From: Rothia dentocariosa ATCC 17931
GTDB taxonomy: Bacteria; Actinomycetota; Actinomycetes; Actinomycetales; Micrococcaceae
Assembly: GCF_000164695.2 (NCBI RefSeq)
Contig: NC_014643.1
Span: 2,442,026 to 2,506,025, forward strand
Length of the DNA stretch: 64,000 bases
Direction of reading: 5' to 3'
The translations under genes were made by a program, and so were the position numbers. Shown piece after piece: positions 38,965-43,968 of the stretch (its first letter is position 1; each line of letters begins with the position of its first letter). The notes under the pieces were generated by a model. It was not told where the DNA came from. It worked only from the letters and a program-made list of their open reading frames with translations, and did not search any database.

Positions 38965-40002
<1,038 letters not shown>

Positions 40003-40150: not shown

Positions 40151-40651
40151 TTAGATACGTTCACTCATGGAACGTGGACCACGAGAGAGTGCAATGGTCC
40201 CAGCACGCACGATCTCTCGCACTCCGTAAGGTTCAAGAACATCAAGCAAGGCGTTAAGCTTTTCGGGAGAACCGGTTGCCTCAATCACTACGGACTCGGT
40301 AGAGACATCAATAACCGAAGCACGGAAAAGGTCAGCGGCCTGCACAACCTGCAGGCGAGCGGCGGCATCCGCCTTGACCTTAACCATGATGTGATCACGC
40401 TGTGTTGAAGTCTCTGGGGCTAACTCCACCACCTTAAGCACATGGATCAGCTTGTTGAGCTGCTTAGTAAGCTGTTCCAAAGTCTCAGGCTCACCATCAG
40501 CAACAATTGTGATGCGCGAAACGTCGGGAACCTCAGTGGGACCCACCGCCAAAGACTGAATATTGAACATGCGGCGAGAGAACAAACCGGTCACGCGTGA
40601 GAGCACACCGGGTTTGTCTTCAACTAAAACGGATAGGGTGTGCAGGCTCAT
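40151..40651 (-). CDS. ilvN: Acetolactate synthase, regulatory small subunit
   Basis: 166 aa. Its ATG overlaps the ilvB stop by one base (TAATG), so the two subunits are made by coupled translation. The N-terminal ACT domain ('LSVLVEDKPGVLSRVTGLF' to 'NIQSLAVGPTE') binds valine for feedback inhibition, and a second ACT-like domain follows ('RDHIMVKVKADAAARLQVVQ' region). Length is normal. It activates the catalytic subunit and gives it valine sensitivity. Confidence 0.95.
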   Translation of the reverse strand: MSLHTLSVLVEDKPGVLSRVTGLFSRRMFNIQSLAVGPTEVPDVSRITIVADGEPETLEQLTKQLNKLIHVLKVVELAPETSTQRDHIMVKVKADAAARLQVVQAADLFRASVIDVSTESVVIEATGSPEKLNALLDVLEPYGVREIVRAGTIALSRGPRSMSERI

Positions 40652-42471
40652 TAGTTTTCTCCCTCTTCTCGACCGAAATCGGGTGACGTGTTTTTAGCGA
40701 TTTGGATGAGGTCGTTCGATACACCGGCGGGCACCATCGGCCATACCATGGCATCGGGGCTCACGGTAAAGTCAATCACCACGGGACGGTCGTTGATAGC
40801 GAGCGCTTGTTTGATAACCTCGTCCACGTCTTCGTCCCTCTCGCAGCGGAAAGTGGCGCATCCATAGGCGTCGCCAAGCTTCACAAAGTCAGGGATGCGG
40901 TCGGTTCCGTGCCCGGTGCGCAGATGGGTGTTGGAGTATCGACCATCGTAGAAGAGTGCCTGCCACTGACGCACCATACCCAGCGAGGAGTTATTGACCA
41001 CGGCAACCTTGATGGGAATGTTGTTCTGTGCGCAGGTGGCAAGTTCCTGGTTGGTCATCTGAAAACAACCGTCACCATCAATAGCCCACACAACGGAGTC
41101 TGGGTTGGCAACTTTCACGCCCATAGCGGCGGGAACGCAGTATCCCATAGTGCCGAGTCCTGCTGAGCTGAGGAAATGCCGCGGTTTCTCTTGGCCGATG
41201 AAATGTGCGCCCCACATTTGATGCTGTCCCACGCCGGTCACGTAGAAAGCATCGGGACCGGTGAGGGCGCTCAGGCGCTCCAATACGTGCTGGGGGGATC
41301 CCAAGCCGTCGTCGGTCTTGGTGTACCCAAGGGGGTAGTCGTTCTTGATGGTATCAAGTTCAACCCACCACTCGCCTAAGTTCGGCAACTTATTGGCGAA
41401 CTCGGTGGAGAGCAGTTCGTTGAGTTCGGGGAGCACATAGCGCAAATCACCCACGATCGGCACGTCTGCGAAGCGAATCTTGGAGATTTCTGCCGGGTCT
41501 ACGTCAATGTGGATGACCTTGGCTTCGGGGGCGAAAGAGTCGAGTTTACCGGTCACGCGGTCGTCAAAACGAGCCCCTAGAGTAATCAGCAGATCGGATT
41601 TCTGCATAGCGAACACGGCGGGAACGGTGCCGTGCATACCAGGCATGCCCAGGTTTTGCGGGTTGGAGTCTGGGAAAGCACCACGGGCGTTCAACGTGGT
41701 CACCACGGGAGCCCCGGTAATTTCGGCGAGCTTTGCCAGCTCCTCGGATGCACCGGAGCGGATAATACCGCCGCCAACGTACAGTACGGGACGTTTGGAT
41801 TCACTGATGAGCTTGGCCGCTTCACGAATCTGCTTGGAGTGACCACGGGTTACGGGAGTGTACCCGCGTACCTCAACCTTGGGGGGCCAGTTGAACTCCA
41901 TCATACCGACCTGCGCGTCCTTGGTGATGTCCACGAGCACGGGGCCGGGGCGTCCGGTGGAGGCGATATGGAACGCGGCAGAGAGCGCACGCGGAATATC
42001 CTGCGGATCAGAAATCATGAAGGAGTGCTTGGTAATCGGCATAGTCATGCCCACCACATCCGCTTCTTGGAAGGCGTCGGTGCCCAGAAGTTTGGTGGAA
42101 ACCTGACCGGTGATAGCTACCAGCGGAACGGAGTCCATATTGGCGTCCGCGATCGCGGTGATCAGGTTTGTGGCGCCCGGCCCTGATGTTGCAATACACA
42201 CGCCGACTTTGCCGGTGGAAGTTGCATACCCTTGAGCCGCATGCCCTGCCCCCTGCTCATGACGAACGAGGATGTGGTTAATTTTGGAAGAATCCATCAA
42301 GGGGTCGTAGGTGGGCAGAATTGCGCCACCTGGCAGACCGAAGACATCGGTAACACCCAAAAGTTCGAGTGTACGAATAATCGCTTGCGAGCCGGTCATG
42401 CGTTCGGCAGCAGGGGCTTTTTCTTCAGCCTGCCCACTACCCGCGGAGTTAATCGAAAATCCCGTGGTCAT
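40651..42471 (-). CDS. ilvB: Acetolactate synthase, catalytic large subunit
   Basis: 606 aa, ATG 42471, GAGG about ten bases upstream. The ThDP/FAD enzyme condenses pyruvate with pyruvate or 2-oxobutyrate, the first step of Val/Leu/Ile synthesis. Features: '[14 protein letters not shown]', catalytic Glu in '[14 protein letters not shown]' (about residue 71), '[17 protein letters not shown]', the FAD domain '[16 protein letters not shown]', and the ThDP/Mg motif '[32 protein letters not shown]' region near 470-500. A 15-25-residue polar N-terminus precedes the core. A leader peptide and attenuator lie upstream, so expression should respond to charged branched-chain tRNAs. Confidence 0.96.
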
Positions 42472-42593
42472 AATAATGATGCCTCGTTTGTATTGTTTTC
42501 TAGTTCTCGACAGATGCGCGTGAAGCCCGTCTGTTCGGGTATCTTACGCACTGTTTCGCTCGCTGTAGGCTCCGGTCGGGCGCCTTTAGCTAT

Positions 42594-42625
42594 AAAAATA
42601 CCCTCCGCTATGGTGTTGCGAAGGG
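42594..42625 (-). terminator. ilvB attenuator terminator
   Basis: Stem CCCTTCGC / GCGGAGGG (one G-U pair) with a 9-base loop, followed by TATTTTTAT on the minus strand. It lies 41 bases past the leader-peptide stop and 120 bases before ilvB. Its 5' arm overlaps the antiterminator arm. Confidence 0.75.
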
Positions 42626-42667
42626 CGCACATTCTATTCACAGAAAATCTACCTTGTGAAGCGCCCT
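42622..42667 (-). promoter_or_regulatory. ilvB attenuator antiterminator stem
   Basis: AGGGCGC (42661-42667, overlapping the leader stop codon) pairs perfectly with GCGCCCT (42622-42628). The second arm shares four bases with the terminator's 5' arm, so the two structures exclude each other. A ribosome at the leader stop would mask the first arm and favour termination; one stalled upstream would leave it free. Confidence 0.7.
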
Positions 42668-42716
42668 AGGCGACGACGACAAGGCCAAGAATTCGCTGCG
42701 TCTTGCGTGTTTGCAC
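42666..42716 (-). CDS. ilvBNC leader peptide, 16 aa
   Basis: GTG at 42716 and TAG at 42666 encode MQTRKTQRILGLVVVA. Seven of the last eight residues before the final Ala-stop are Ile, Leu, Gly or Val, with three consecutive Val codons (all GTC) plus one Ile and two Leu. This is the arrangement of ribosome-stalling leaders that sense branched-chain aminoacyl-tRNA. The start lies six bases after the -10 element, so it is probably read from a leaderless transcript; no ribosome site is present. Attenuation of ilvBNC with such a leader is known in Corynebacterium glutamicum. The terminator and antiterminator follow directly. Confidence 0.75.
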   Translation of the reverse strand: MQTRKTQRILGLVVVA

Positions 42717-42722
42717 CTTTAT

Positions 42723-42751
42723 ATAGTCTCGCTCTTGATGTCATGAGTCAA
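42723..42751 (-). promoter_or_regulatory. ilvBNC promoter
   Basis: -35 TTGACT (42746-42751), 17-base spacer, -10 GACTAT (42723-42728; conserved A2 and T6). The overlapping TATATA (42720-42725) is an alternative -10. The GTG of the leader peptide is at the expected transcription start. Confidence 0.6.
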
Positions 42752-42969
42752 ATTTCCACGCCGTTTTTATGAGAGTTTCTCTAATTTCTTCGCATTGCGT
42801 GTACTTTCGATATATTTTCGAGCTCTTACCCAGCTCTGTAGGATATCCTGTTGTATGCCCAGCGCCCAAGAGAGCCTGACTCAGGTCAGCACCGGCACAG
42901 ACAATAATTGATTCTTGCGGTAATCTGCGAGCTCCAGTAATCCCCCAGGTAAATATGTGACGTGATACA

Positions 42970-43004: not shown

Positions 43005-43523
43005 ATGACCGACTCGCAAAACCTGGCTGCTTCACCCTCCCCTACACCAGAGCAGTCTAACCAACCACAGAGCGCCGAGGCTCTTACGGGAGAACAGCTC
43101 ATCAAGGTGCTCCACCCTGCATTCGATGAGCAGATTATTAACTATGGGGCCTACGACTTGGTCTACGCTACCGGAAGCGCCATCTACCGTAACCCTGATA
43201 TCGACCAACACCAAGAACCTATGCAGGAGCATTTTTTGGTGGGCTACCAAGAGGTTCCTGACGAGGTTATTATCGCCCCTATCCGCATGCCAGATGTTAC
43301 GCCTGCTGGCACCGCATCCACCATTGATAACACAAATGCGCTGCACGCATACCGGGTAGGTGAACATTCGGTGGCTATTGAATCGGTGAACGGCAGCTCT
43401 TTCCTGCTTATTTTTGAGGATGCGCCTGAGATTACCACCATTCACGGGACCGGTGTTCTCAACCAGAGTCGCGACGTCTCTGCTTTCCGCGAGTTTGTAA
43501 CCTCACGCTGGCCTGTTCTCTAG
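43005..43523 (+). CDS. Conserved-looking protein of unknown function
   Basis: 172 aa. The first 30 residues are Ser/Pro/Gln-rich and probably disordered. The rest is a mixed alpha/beta soluble domain with 'HPAFDEQIINYGAYDLVYATG', 'EHFLVGYQEVPDEVIIAP' and 'VAIESVNGSSFLLIFEDAPEITTIHG'. No signal peptide, TM segment or known motif is visible. The opposite strand is also open (43032-43445), but the plus frame has a good promoter with standard spacing to the ATG, and its translation has normal composition. Divergent from ilvBNC, convergent with tRNA-Lys. I do not recognise it. Confidence 0.65.
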   Translation: MTDSQNLAASPSPTPEQSNQPQSAEALTGEQLIKVLHPAFDEQIINYGAYDLVYATGSAIYRNPDIDQHQEPMQEHFLVGYQEVPDEVIIAPIRMPDVTPAGTASTIDNTNALHAYRVGEHSVAIESVNGSSFLLIFEDAPEITTIHGTGVLNQSRDVSAFREFVTSRWPVL

Positions 43524-43630: not shown

Positions 43631-43636
43631 ATTCTG

Positions 43637-43709
43637 TGCGCCCTCTGGGACTCGAACCCAGAACCCATTGATTAAGAGTCAATTGCTCTGCCAATTGAGC
43701 TAAAGGCGC
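43637..43709 (-). tRNA. tRNA-Lys (anticodon CTT), copy A
   Basis: 73 bases. Acceptor GCGCCTT/AGGGCGC with A73, anticodon stem ATTGA/TCAAT around loop CTCTTAA, T-stem CTGGG/CCCAG. CCA is not encoded. Same as copy B apart from the acceptor-stem pair at 6-67. Confidence 0.95.
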
Positions 43710-43889: not shown

Positions 43890-43895
43890 ATTTTG

Positions 43896-43968
43896 TGCGC
43901 CCCCTGGGACTCGAACCCAGAACCCATTGATTAAGAGTCAATTGCTCTGCCAATTGAGCTAGAGGCGC
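43896..43968 (-). tRNA. tRNA-Lys (anticodon CTT), copy B
   Basis: 73 bases. Acceptor GCGCCTC/GGGGCGC-type pairing with A73; D-arm, anticodon arm and T-arm are identical to copy A. CCA is not encoded. It has its own promoter and terminator, so the two genes are independent units. Confidence 0.95.

Follow-up and report, generated by a model that had tools for sequence, protein, structure and literature searches.

A probable leaderless attenuator of the ilvBNC operon in Rothia dentocariosa and related leaders in the Micrococcaceae

The window, a stretch of 64,000 nucleotides of Rothia dentocariosa ATCC 17931 (positions 2,442,026–2,506,025 of NC_014643.1, in a genome consisting of one contig of 2,506,025 bases), contains on its minus strand three genes that were identified by their Pfam domains and follow each other in the order ilvB-ilvN-ilvC. 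The ilvB gene (40651–42471) encodes the 606-residue large subunit of acetohydroxyacid synthase (AHAS; TPP_enzyme N, M and C), ilvN (40151–40651) its small subunit (ACT_AHAS_ss, ALS_ss_C), and ilvC (38965–39993) a ketol-acid reductoisomerase (KARI_N, KARI_C). The nearest named IlvB found, that of R. aeria, was 89% identical, records very near the window's own having possibly been excluded. The element studied here precedes ilvB, its putative first regulated gene, and occupies the minus strand from 42751 to about 42594, between ilvB and a divergent open reading frame (43005–43523, plus strand) for which no Pfam match was found. Two tRNA-Lys(CUU) genes are located near the leader on the minus strand (43636–43709 and 43895–43968), about 185 nt apart.

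All parts of the element lie on the minus strand. It begins with a putative promoter in which the -35 hexamer TTGACT (42746–42751) and the -10 hexamer GACTAT (42723–42728) are separated by 17 nt. Six nucleotides beyond the latter a GTG at 42716 opens a reading frame (42666–42716) that ends with TAG and encodes MQTRKTQRILGLVVVA, a probably leaderless peptide of 16 residues beginning 245 nt before ilvB. It contains the run ILGLVVVA, in which six of eight residues are branched-chain, as is expected of the leader peptide of an ilvB attenuator. The promoter and the GTG-initiated peptide with its branched-chain run had been proposed in an earlier, sequence-only reading; every base quoted there is present, and the strand, which was not given, is the minus one. 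The -10 hexamer matches TATAAT at three of six positions only, and a generic promoter scan did not include the GACTAT/TTGACT pair in its list. Over the 92 leaders described below, the -10 region is outlined by an A at -11 (61 leaders) and a T at -7 (59 leaders).

Three hairpins can be formed by the leader RNA. In the first, the anti-antiterminator, the left arm CCUUGU (42679–42684), lying in the Gly-Leu-Val codons, pairs with the right arm ACAAGG past the stop codon (42652–42657; p 0.03 in the duplex test for the window sequence), and inner pairs CGCC/GGCG (42672–42669 and 42665–42662) belong to the same fold of -14.2 kcal/mol. The second, the antiterminator (-16.7 kcal/mol), is composed of AGGGCGC (42661–42667), which begins inside the UAG stop codon, and GCGCCCU (42622–42628). 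The third is an intrinsic terminator between the mini-ORF and the gene, another feature expected of ilvB attenuators: its 5' arm CCCUUCGC (42618–42625) and 3' arm GCGGAGGG (42601–42608) form a stem that in DNA letters reads CCCTTCGC/GCGGAGGG, with eight pairs including one G-U, and is followed by TATTTTTATA. The U-rich tract UAUUUUUAUA occupies 42591–42600, and the hairpin energy varies from -12.4 to -15.1 kcal/mol with the number of flanking bases folded. The antiterminator and the terminator have CCCU (CCCT in DNA) in common, so that, as judged from sequence and ribosome geometry, they would be mutually exclusive and gated by the ribosome. The antiterminator arms, the terminator with its U-run and the four shared bases had all been pointed out before, and we found them base by base. 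The description of the attenuator as complete was nevertheless an understatement, since the anti-antiterminator, which joins the Leu/Val codons to the RNA beyond the stop, had been overlooked. It should be mentioned that the 143-nt leader, when folded in full, has no unusual stability (z -1.07) and that a generic terminator scan did not report the window terminator, probably because its loop limit is 8 and the loop here is 9.

Comparison with other Rothia leaders revealed that in R. aeria (L003) the anti-antiterminator arms read CCUCGU/ACGAGG, with both sides changed relative to the window. TAGGG is invariant in 10 aligned Rothia leaders, a chosen set (L010, whose stop reads TAGAACC, was left out), and the spacer between the antiterminator arms diverges. 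For the R. nasimurium-like and R. halotolerans-like leaders, the predicted stalled-state arm is located upstream of the stop, inside the peptide codons. In L005-L008 the right arm of the antiterminator carries an extra C (GCGCCCCTA) opposite the same TAGGGCG left arm, so its pairing would keep a one-base bulge.

A chance origin of this layout was considered and rejected on the basis of a window scan and of the shuffle controls given below. On both strands of the window, TTGAC or TTGAT stands 34–38 nt before the start of a branched-chain mini-ORF (at least five of eight residues) at two places, and only the ilvB leader has a strong terminator in the next 130 nt (-14.4 kcal/mol, versus -3.6 for the other place). 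It is hardly credible that the terminator is controlled not by a leader peptide but by a ligand-sensing riboswitch or a T-box. Such control has precedents, in that ppGpp riboswitches and other RNA motifs are reported to precede ilvB in some bacteria (PMC10272879); here the reading frame rich in Ile, Leu and Val is conserved and no aptamer is seen. An Rfam search of 42441–42860 gave no family up to E 10 except a sub-threshold nuoG match outside the leader, and in the whole window only tRNAs reached the gathering threshold. With no Rfam match in the leader, the riboswitch and T-box candidates were rejected.

To describe the distribution of the leader, we used the DNA upstream of ilvB from 34 of the genus's 35 genomes (33 and, in addition, R. 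kristinae L064, whose coordinates are those of G010; G023 was left out), from 80 named contigs, many of which represent the same genomes, and from 40 further regions, mostly of other genera of the family. After removal of near-identical sequences (e.g., L015, a duplicate of L014), 127 distinct regions remained out of 159. A leader was defined as a mini-ORF of 8–40 codons with at least four Ile, Leu or Val among eight residues and with TTGAC or TTGAT 34–38 nt before its start codon. Leaders were revealed in 92 of the 127 regions, as against 13 of the reverse complements and 3, 1 and 2 in sets of dinucleotide shuffles; with at least five of eight residues required, the numbers were 85 against 3 and 0, 0 and 0. 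The distance between the -35 motif and the start codon varied in the 92 leaders from 35 to 38 nt only (36 in 46, 35 in 28, 37 in 16 and 38 in 2), that of the window being 35. When no spacing was required, 46 mini-ORFs with at least six of eight residues showed a TTGAC peak at -35 to -38 (43 counts), with 0–4 counts per position elsewhere from -9 to -43; more counts, up to 8 at one position, were seen farther upstream (-69 to -82) because alternative in-frame starts were included.

As a rule the leaders start with ATG (84), while seven have GTG, namely the leader of the window, that of R. aeria and those of five relatives (L004-L008); the single TTG start is probably a chance hit. Within the genus, a branched-chain leader is present in 33 of the 34 genomes examined, L015 being counted by way of L014, which it duplicates. 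Of the 92 leaders, 88 are followed by a terminator; the search found none in L023, L073, L106 and L128, which were left out of later counts, and L106 looks like a chance hit in a coding sequence. The 35 regions without a leader by this definition come mostly from Microbacteriaceae or from records assigned no further than Micrococcales or Actinomycetota, but they also include R. kristinae L064, Auritidibacter L075 and Micrococcus L086. In five of the 35 (L078, L092, L100, L101 and L108) less than 270 nt of upstream sequence was available, and a leader could be missed. Most Microbacteriaceae loci among L081-L120 lack a leader by this definition, some of their contigs having little upstream sequence. 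The element therefore looks like a feature of Micrococcaceae that was lost, or is absent, in the neighbouring Microbacteriaceae.

Several Rothia loci were unusual. In L004 (the same as L042, Rothia sp. MAG S7M_St_001) the leader peptide is degenerate (MLMMCSPTVGVRVLSPTGR), with scattered Val and Leu codons only, despite which the GTG, the promoter spacing, the TAGGGCG arm and the terminator are kept. R. kristinae L064 contains a leader-like frame, MARRASSALTDARIPLIPAERGVRGVR, at the right spacing (TTGATC) with few branched-chain codons and a terminator-like hairpin downstream. The mini-ORF of L023 (the same as L052, Rothia sp. MAG S11A_Sa_8) has no stop at the usual place (...ITLLVVLEGADK...) and continues for 36 residues through the hairpins, pointing to a sequencing error or a broken attenuator. 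L071 (the same as L036), recorded as Curtobacterium sp. S6, groups in the genus of the window (G022), and its leader resembles the one in R. koreensis (L035); the record name looks wrong.

Transcription normally starts about 6 nt after the -10 hexamer, which in the window is where the start codon begins. The base preceding the GTG is G, unlike the C or T found at this position in 85 of the 92 leaders, and the exact start could thus be 1–2 nt upstream. A calibration is provided by Streptomyces-type loci, i.e., the 11 distinct loci, among 20 fetched, that encode exactly the S. lividans IlvL peptide (MRTRILVLGKRVG): all 11 have TTGAC at -37, and ilvL of S. lividans is transcribed leaderless according to an RNA-seq-based reannotation (PMC8079986). 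From this calibration and the conserved distance between promoter and start codon, transcription in the window probably starts at the GUG or within about 2 nt of it. The GTG need be no obstacle to a leaderless start in actinobacteria, given that in mycobacteria an ATG or GTG at the 5' end was described as necessary and sufficient for leaderless initiation, even though E. coli uses a leaderless GTG poorly (PMC4633059).

It is very unlikely, in our estimate, that the attenuator is real but its peptide is read from an mRNA that has a 5' untranslated region, short or longer, the GTG being reached by an internal or Shine-Dalgarno-like start. The poor -10 hexamer and the AAAG preceding the GTG would agree with such a start, as would the C. 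glutamicum ilvBNC operon, whose transcription start was placed one nucleotide from the leader start codon (PMC11857589). Yet AAAGG spans up to and includes the G of the GTG, touching the start codon and leaving no room for the usual spacer, and the spacing is held at 35–38 nt in 92 leaders of several genera and at 37 in the 11 Streptomyces-type loci, whose peptide is leaderless by RNA-seq. We therefore retain the leaderless start, which had already been suggested for this leader and is backed by the conserved spacing; the special status assigned to it was wrong. Leaderless ilvB leaders are published for C. diphtheriae and S. lividans, and with the C. glutamicum start lying next to the leader codon, leaderlessness as an exceptional trait was rejected. 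A 70S or specialised initiation step might, as supposed in the sequence-only reading, take part in the sensing.

The computed layout and hairpins make it very probable that ilvBNC is controlled by a ribosome-mediated transcription attenuator whose leader peptide is leaderless, with the start, the stalling, the short terminated RNA and the response to amino acids being predicted from them; it very probably would switch the genes on when isoleucine, leucine or valine is short. In this scheme the ribosome would load straight onto the GUG at the 5' end and translate MQTRKTQRILGLVVVA. Shortage of charged Ile-, Leu- or Val-tRNA would make it stall in the ILGLV stretch, where it would sit on the anti-antiterminator's left arm and keep AGGGCGC, at the stop codon, free; AGGGCGC/GCGCCCU would then form ahead of the complete terminator, and RNA polymerase would read into ilvBNC. 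With plentiful amino acids, the ribosome would reach the UAG and cover AGGGCGC, so that the terminator CCCUUCGC/GCGGAGGG with its U-tract could stop transcription. Without translation, the Leu/Val codons would pair with the RNA past the stop and the terminator would also be freed.

The positions of the ribosome were modelled with a footprint reaching 12 nt past the first base of the A-site codon, a value uncertain by perhaps 3 nt. Under this model, a stall at Ile9, Leu10, Leu12 or Val13 leaves AGGGCGC wholly free with CCUUGU under the ribosome, and the antiterminator that can form before the terminator is complete has an energy of -20.7 at Ile9 and Leu10 and of -16.8 to -17.2 at Leu12 and Val13. 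A stall at Val14 leaves part of the arm free (-9.3), one at Val15 exposes next to nothing of it, and at the stop codon the ribosome hides the arm entirely, so that the terminator forms. Thus only the first Val codon would be fully effective, and isoleucine and leucine should be stronger signals than valine, a prediction that depends on the assumed footprint. If the fold includes the terminator up to its last G, stalls at Ile9 and Leu10 still favour the antiterminator, which at Leu12 and Val13 no longer prevails in full; with a slightly longer terminator end, the leader of the window at Ile9 folds to the terminator instead. When the terminator has been completed, it survives to at least 90% in the minimum-energy folds computed for the stalled state of all 31 Rothia leaders. 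Full-length RNA thus reverts to the terminator, and the choice between the two hairpins would have to be made kinetically, as it is by classical attenuators.

The overlap between the two hairpins was then compared with chance. In each of the 31 Rothia leaders folded and in 16 of 18 Kocuria leaders, 3 nt or more of the terminator 5' arm also belong to the stalled-state hairpin. An overlap of at least 4 nt was found in 30 of the 31 Rothia leaders, whereas shuffled upstream segments reach it in 19.7 on average and in 26 at most, so that the Rothia value is moderately above chance; in Kocuria the overlap (16 of 18, shuffled mean 14.3, maximum 18) does not exceed chance. The Kocuria result and the return of full-length folds to the terminator lowered our confidence in the attenuator. 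The same observations, together with the moderate excess in Rothia, speak for a leader and terminator that exist without codon-specific stalling being the means of regulation, as does S. coelicolor ilvB, whose regulatory codons were changed without effect, as cited by Seliverstov et al. (2005; PMC1262725). We consider this quite unlikely for the window: the Streptomyces-type geometry is non-overlapping, whereas the window matches the mutually exclusive design, and in C. glutamicum replacement of three Val codons was reported to abolish valine-dependent expression (PMC11857589). Attenuation of ilvBNC, as asserted in the sequence-only reading, is well supported by the conservation of the layout and by the ribosome geometry.

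That reading had also called for a comparison of relatives with regard to the peptide and covarying stems. The layout and the type of peptide proved to be conserved (92 of 127 regions); the covariation of the stems is weak because the arms hardly vary in the chosen Rothia alignment. Of the 11 stop-anchored Rothia leaders prepared, all except L010 were used for counting pairs, which makes 10. In the antiterminator one pair is changed on both sides, UA for CG in one sequence (L016 by alignment), and 28 of 500 shuffles reach this score; sliding the alignment by +1 to +3 columns gives scores higher than the true register. In the terminator two pairs are changed on both sides (14 of 500 shuffles). 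Consensus folding of the anti-antiterminator stretch by RNAalifold recovered four inner pairs and not the outer stem, the right arm of which is misaligned by MAFFT.

Pairing between the codons and the RNA past the stop was significant in a shuffle test (p ≤ 0.05) in 11 of 31 Rothia leaders (L002, L003, L005-L011, L013 and L016), in 2 of 18 from Kocuria and in 17 of 39 from other genera; no R. nasimurium-like (L014, L017-L027) or R. halotolerans-like (L028-L036) leader reached this level. Over all 88 leaders, the duplex test is weak (mean z -0.7), and only one of the 88 had p ≤ 0.05 in antiterminator shuffles with the free RNA taken from the stop codon on.

Leaders of other genera are organized differently. 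Among 39 leaders that are neither Rothia nor Kocuria, an overlap of at least 4 nt was found in 5, versus a mean of 26.4 for shuffled upstream segments. Of these, the Arthrobacter-type group consists of 27 leaders (L131-L157): in only two of them does the stalled-state hairpin take in 3 nt or more of the terminator arm, 20 have a hairpin of at least six pairs that shares no terminator base, and both hairpins are kept in the full fold in 25. In the mixed group of the 12 others, four Nesterenkonia leaders overlap, seven Yaniella-like ones (MSKTL...) share 1 nt, and one shares none.

In the Arthrobacter-type hairpin, the Lys-Arg-Val-Ala codons (AAGCGCGUGGC) are paired with GUCACGCGC. Counted in 25 of the 27 leaders (L145 and L147 left out), 92.4% of cells pair, a value reached by 0 of 500 shuffles, and two of nine pairs are changed on both sides (39 of 500 shuffles). 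Of L131-L159, 28 leaders have the arm pattern, two Kocuria-group leaders included, and in 26 of them 0–5 nt separate the end of the hairpin from the terminator. The corresponding count for the Arthrobacter-type terminator (60.7% paired, 0 changed on both sides) is invalid, its register having been taken from an out-of-step row. A pseudoknot between the post-stop CUGGU and the terminator loop of this type, noticed by eye only, did not hold across sequences and was rejected.

Similarly, in all 11 Streptomyces-type loci (among L161-L179), AGCGCGUCGG pairs at 10 of 10 positions with the ten nucleotides directly before the terminator. In many Streptomyces-type genomes a second match (ATCCTCGTCATCGGCAAGCGCGTCGG; e.g., G321:C1:6152691-6152716) was found about 80–115 kb from ilvL where both are on the same contig; it is probably an unrelated coding sequence.

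In most Arthrobacter-type leaders (20 of 27) and in all 11 Streptomyces-type ones the gated hairpin abuts the terminator without a shared base, and textbook exclusion by base sharing cannot explain them. A tentative and rather doubtful reading would be that two designs exist and that a change between them took place inside one family: overlapping hairpins in Rothia, Kocuria and Nesterenkonia, acting by base-pair exclusion, and abutting hairpins in the Arthrobacter and Streptomyces types, which would antiterminate without competition for bases. In the abutting class, a rigid helix joined to the terminator stem might not fit the exit channel of RNA polymerase while the terminator closes; no paper on such steric antitermination was found in a literature search. 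If true, the two-design reading would fit the failure of S. coelicolor ilvB to behave as a textbook attenuator.

Attenuator-type ilvB leaders were predicted for Corynebacterium, Mycobacterium and Streptomyces by Seliverstov et al. in 2005 (PMC1262725), C. glutamicum leader peptides were reported from RNA-seq (PMC3890552), and the ilvB-II motif was described in the genus Corynebacterium (PMC10272879). The window resembles C. glutamicum (IlvL MTIIRLVVVTARRLP) in its operon, its short branched-chain peptide, a transcription start, predicted in the window, at or within 1–2 nt of the leader codon and the three hairpin types, an anti-antiterminator, an antiterminator and a terminator having been proposed there (PMC11857589). 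The peptides have 15 residues in C. glutamicum, usually 15–17 in ilvB-II and 16 in the window, and the distance from leader start to ilvB is 292 nt in C. glutamicum versus 245 nt here (PMC11857589; PMC10272879). The two peptides differ, and in the window the antiterminator arm starts inside the stop codon. The GTG start of the window has counterparts among the ilvB-II uORFs, which also include GUG (PMC10272879).

S. lividans ilvL likewise has a leaderless branched-chain peptide, a near-equal spacing (37 versus 35 in the window) and an intrinsic terminator (PMC8079986), but in the Streptomyces-type loci the hairpin stands 0 nt from the terminator with no shared base, whereas that of the window overlaps it. 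The C. diphtheriae ilvB leader (MNIIRLVVITTRRLP) is also leaderless and branched-chain, with the transcription start at the leader start (PMC5784534); the peptide is different, and the likeness is drawn from leader peptide and transcription start alone. The M. tuberculosis ilvB1NC attenuator, which was tested experimentally whereas that of the window is computed, is described as having a uORF with LVVI regulatory codons, on whose stop codon the ribosome masks the antiterminator, and a short terminated RNA of about 120 nt; the excerpted text of this source does not call the uORF leaderless (PMC13236596). Among the matches listed in a search of the open-licence PMC literature by title, we found no description of an ilvB attenuator in Rothia or Micrococcaceae. 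The leaderless ilvB attenuator as such is thus already known, and its occurrence in Rothia and across the family seems to be undescribed in the literature searched.

With these data the Micrococcaceae, Rothia among them, join the actinobacteria whose ilvB attenuator is probably leaderless, and exact arms are given for it. The split between overlapping and abutting hairpins makes testable an old puzzle, that of a Streptomyces ilvB that seemingly disobeys classical attenuation. Micrococcaceae, Corynebacterium and Streptomyces represent three lineages, which suggests that direct loading of the ribosome on the 5' end may be general for these sensors.
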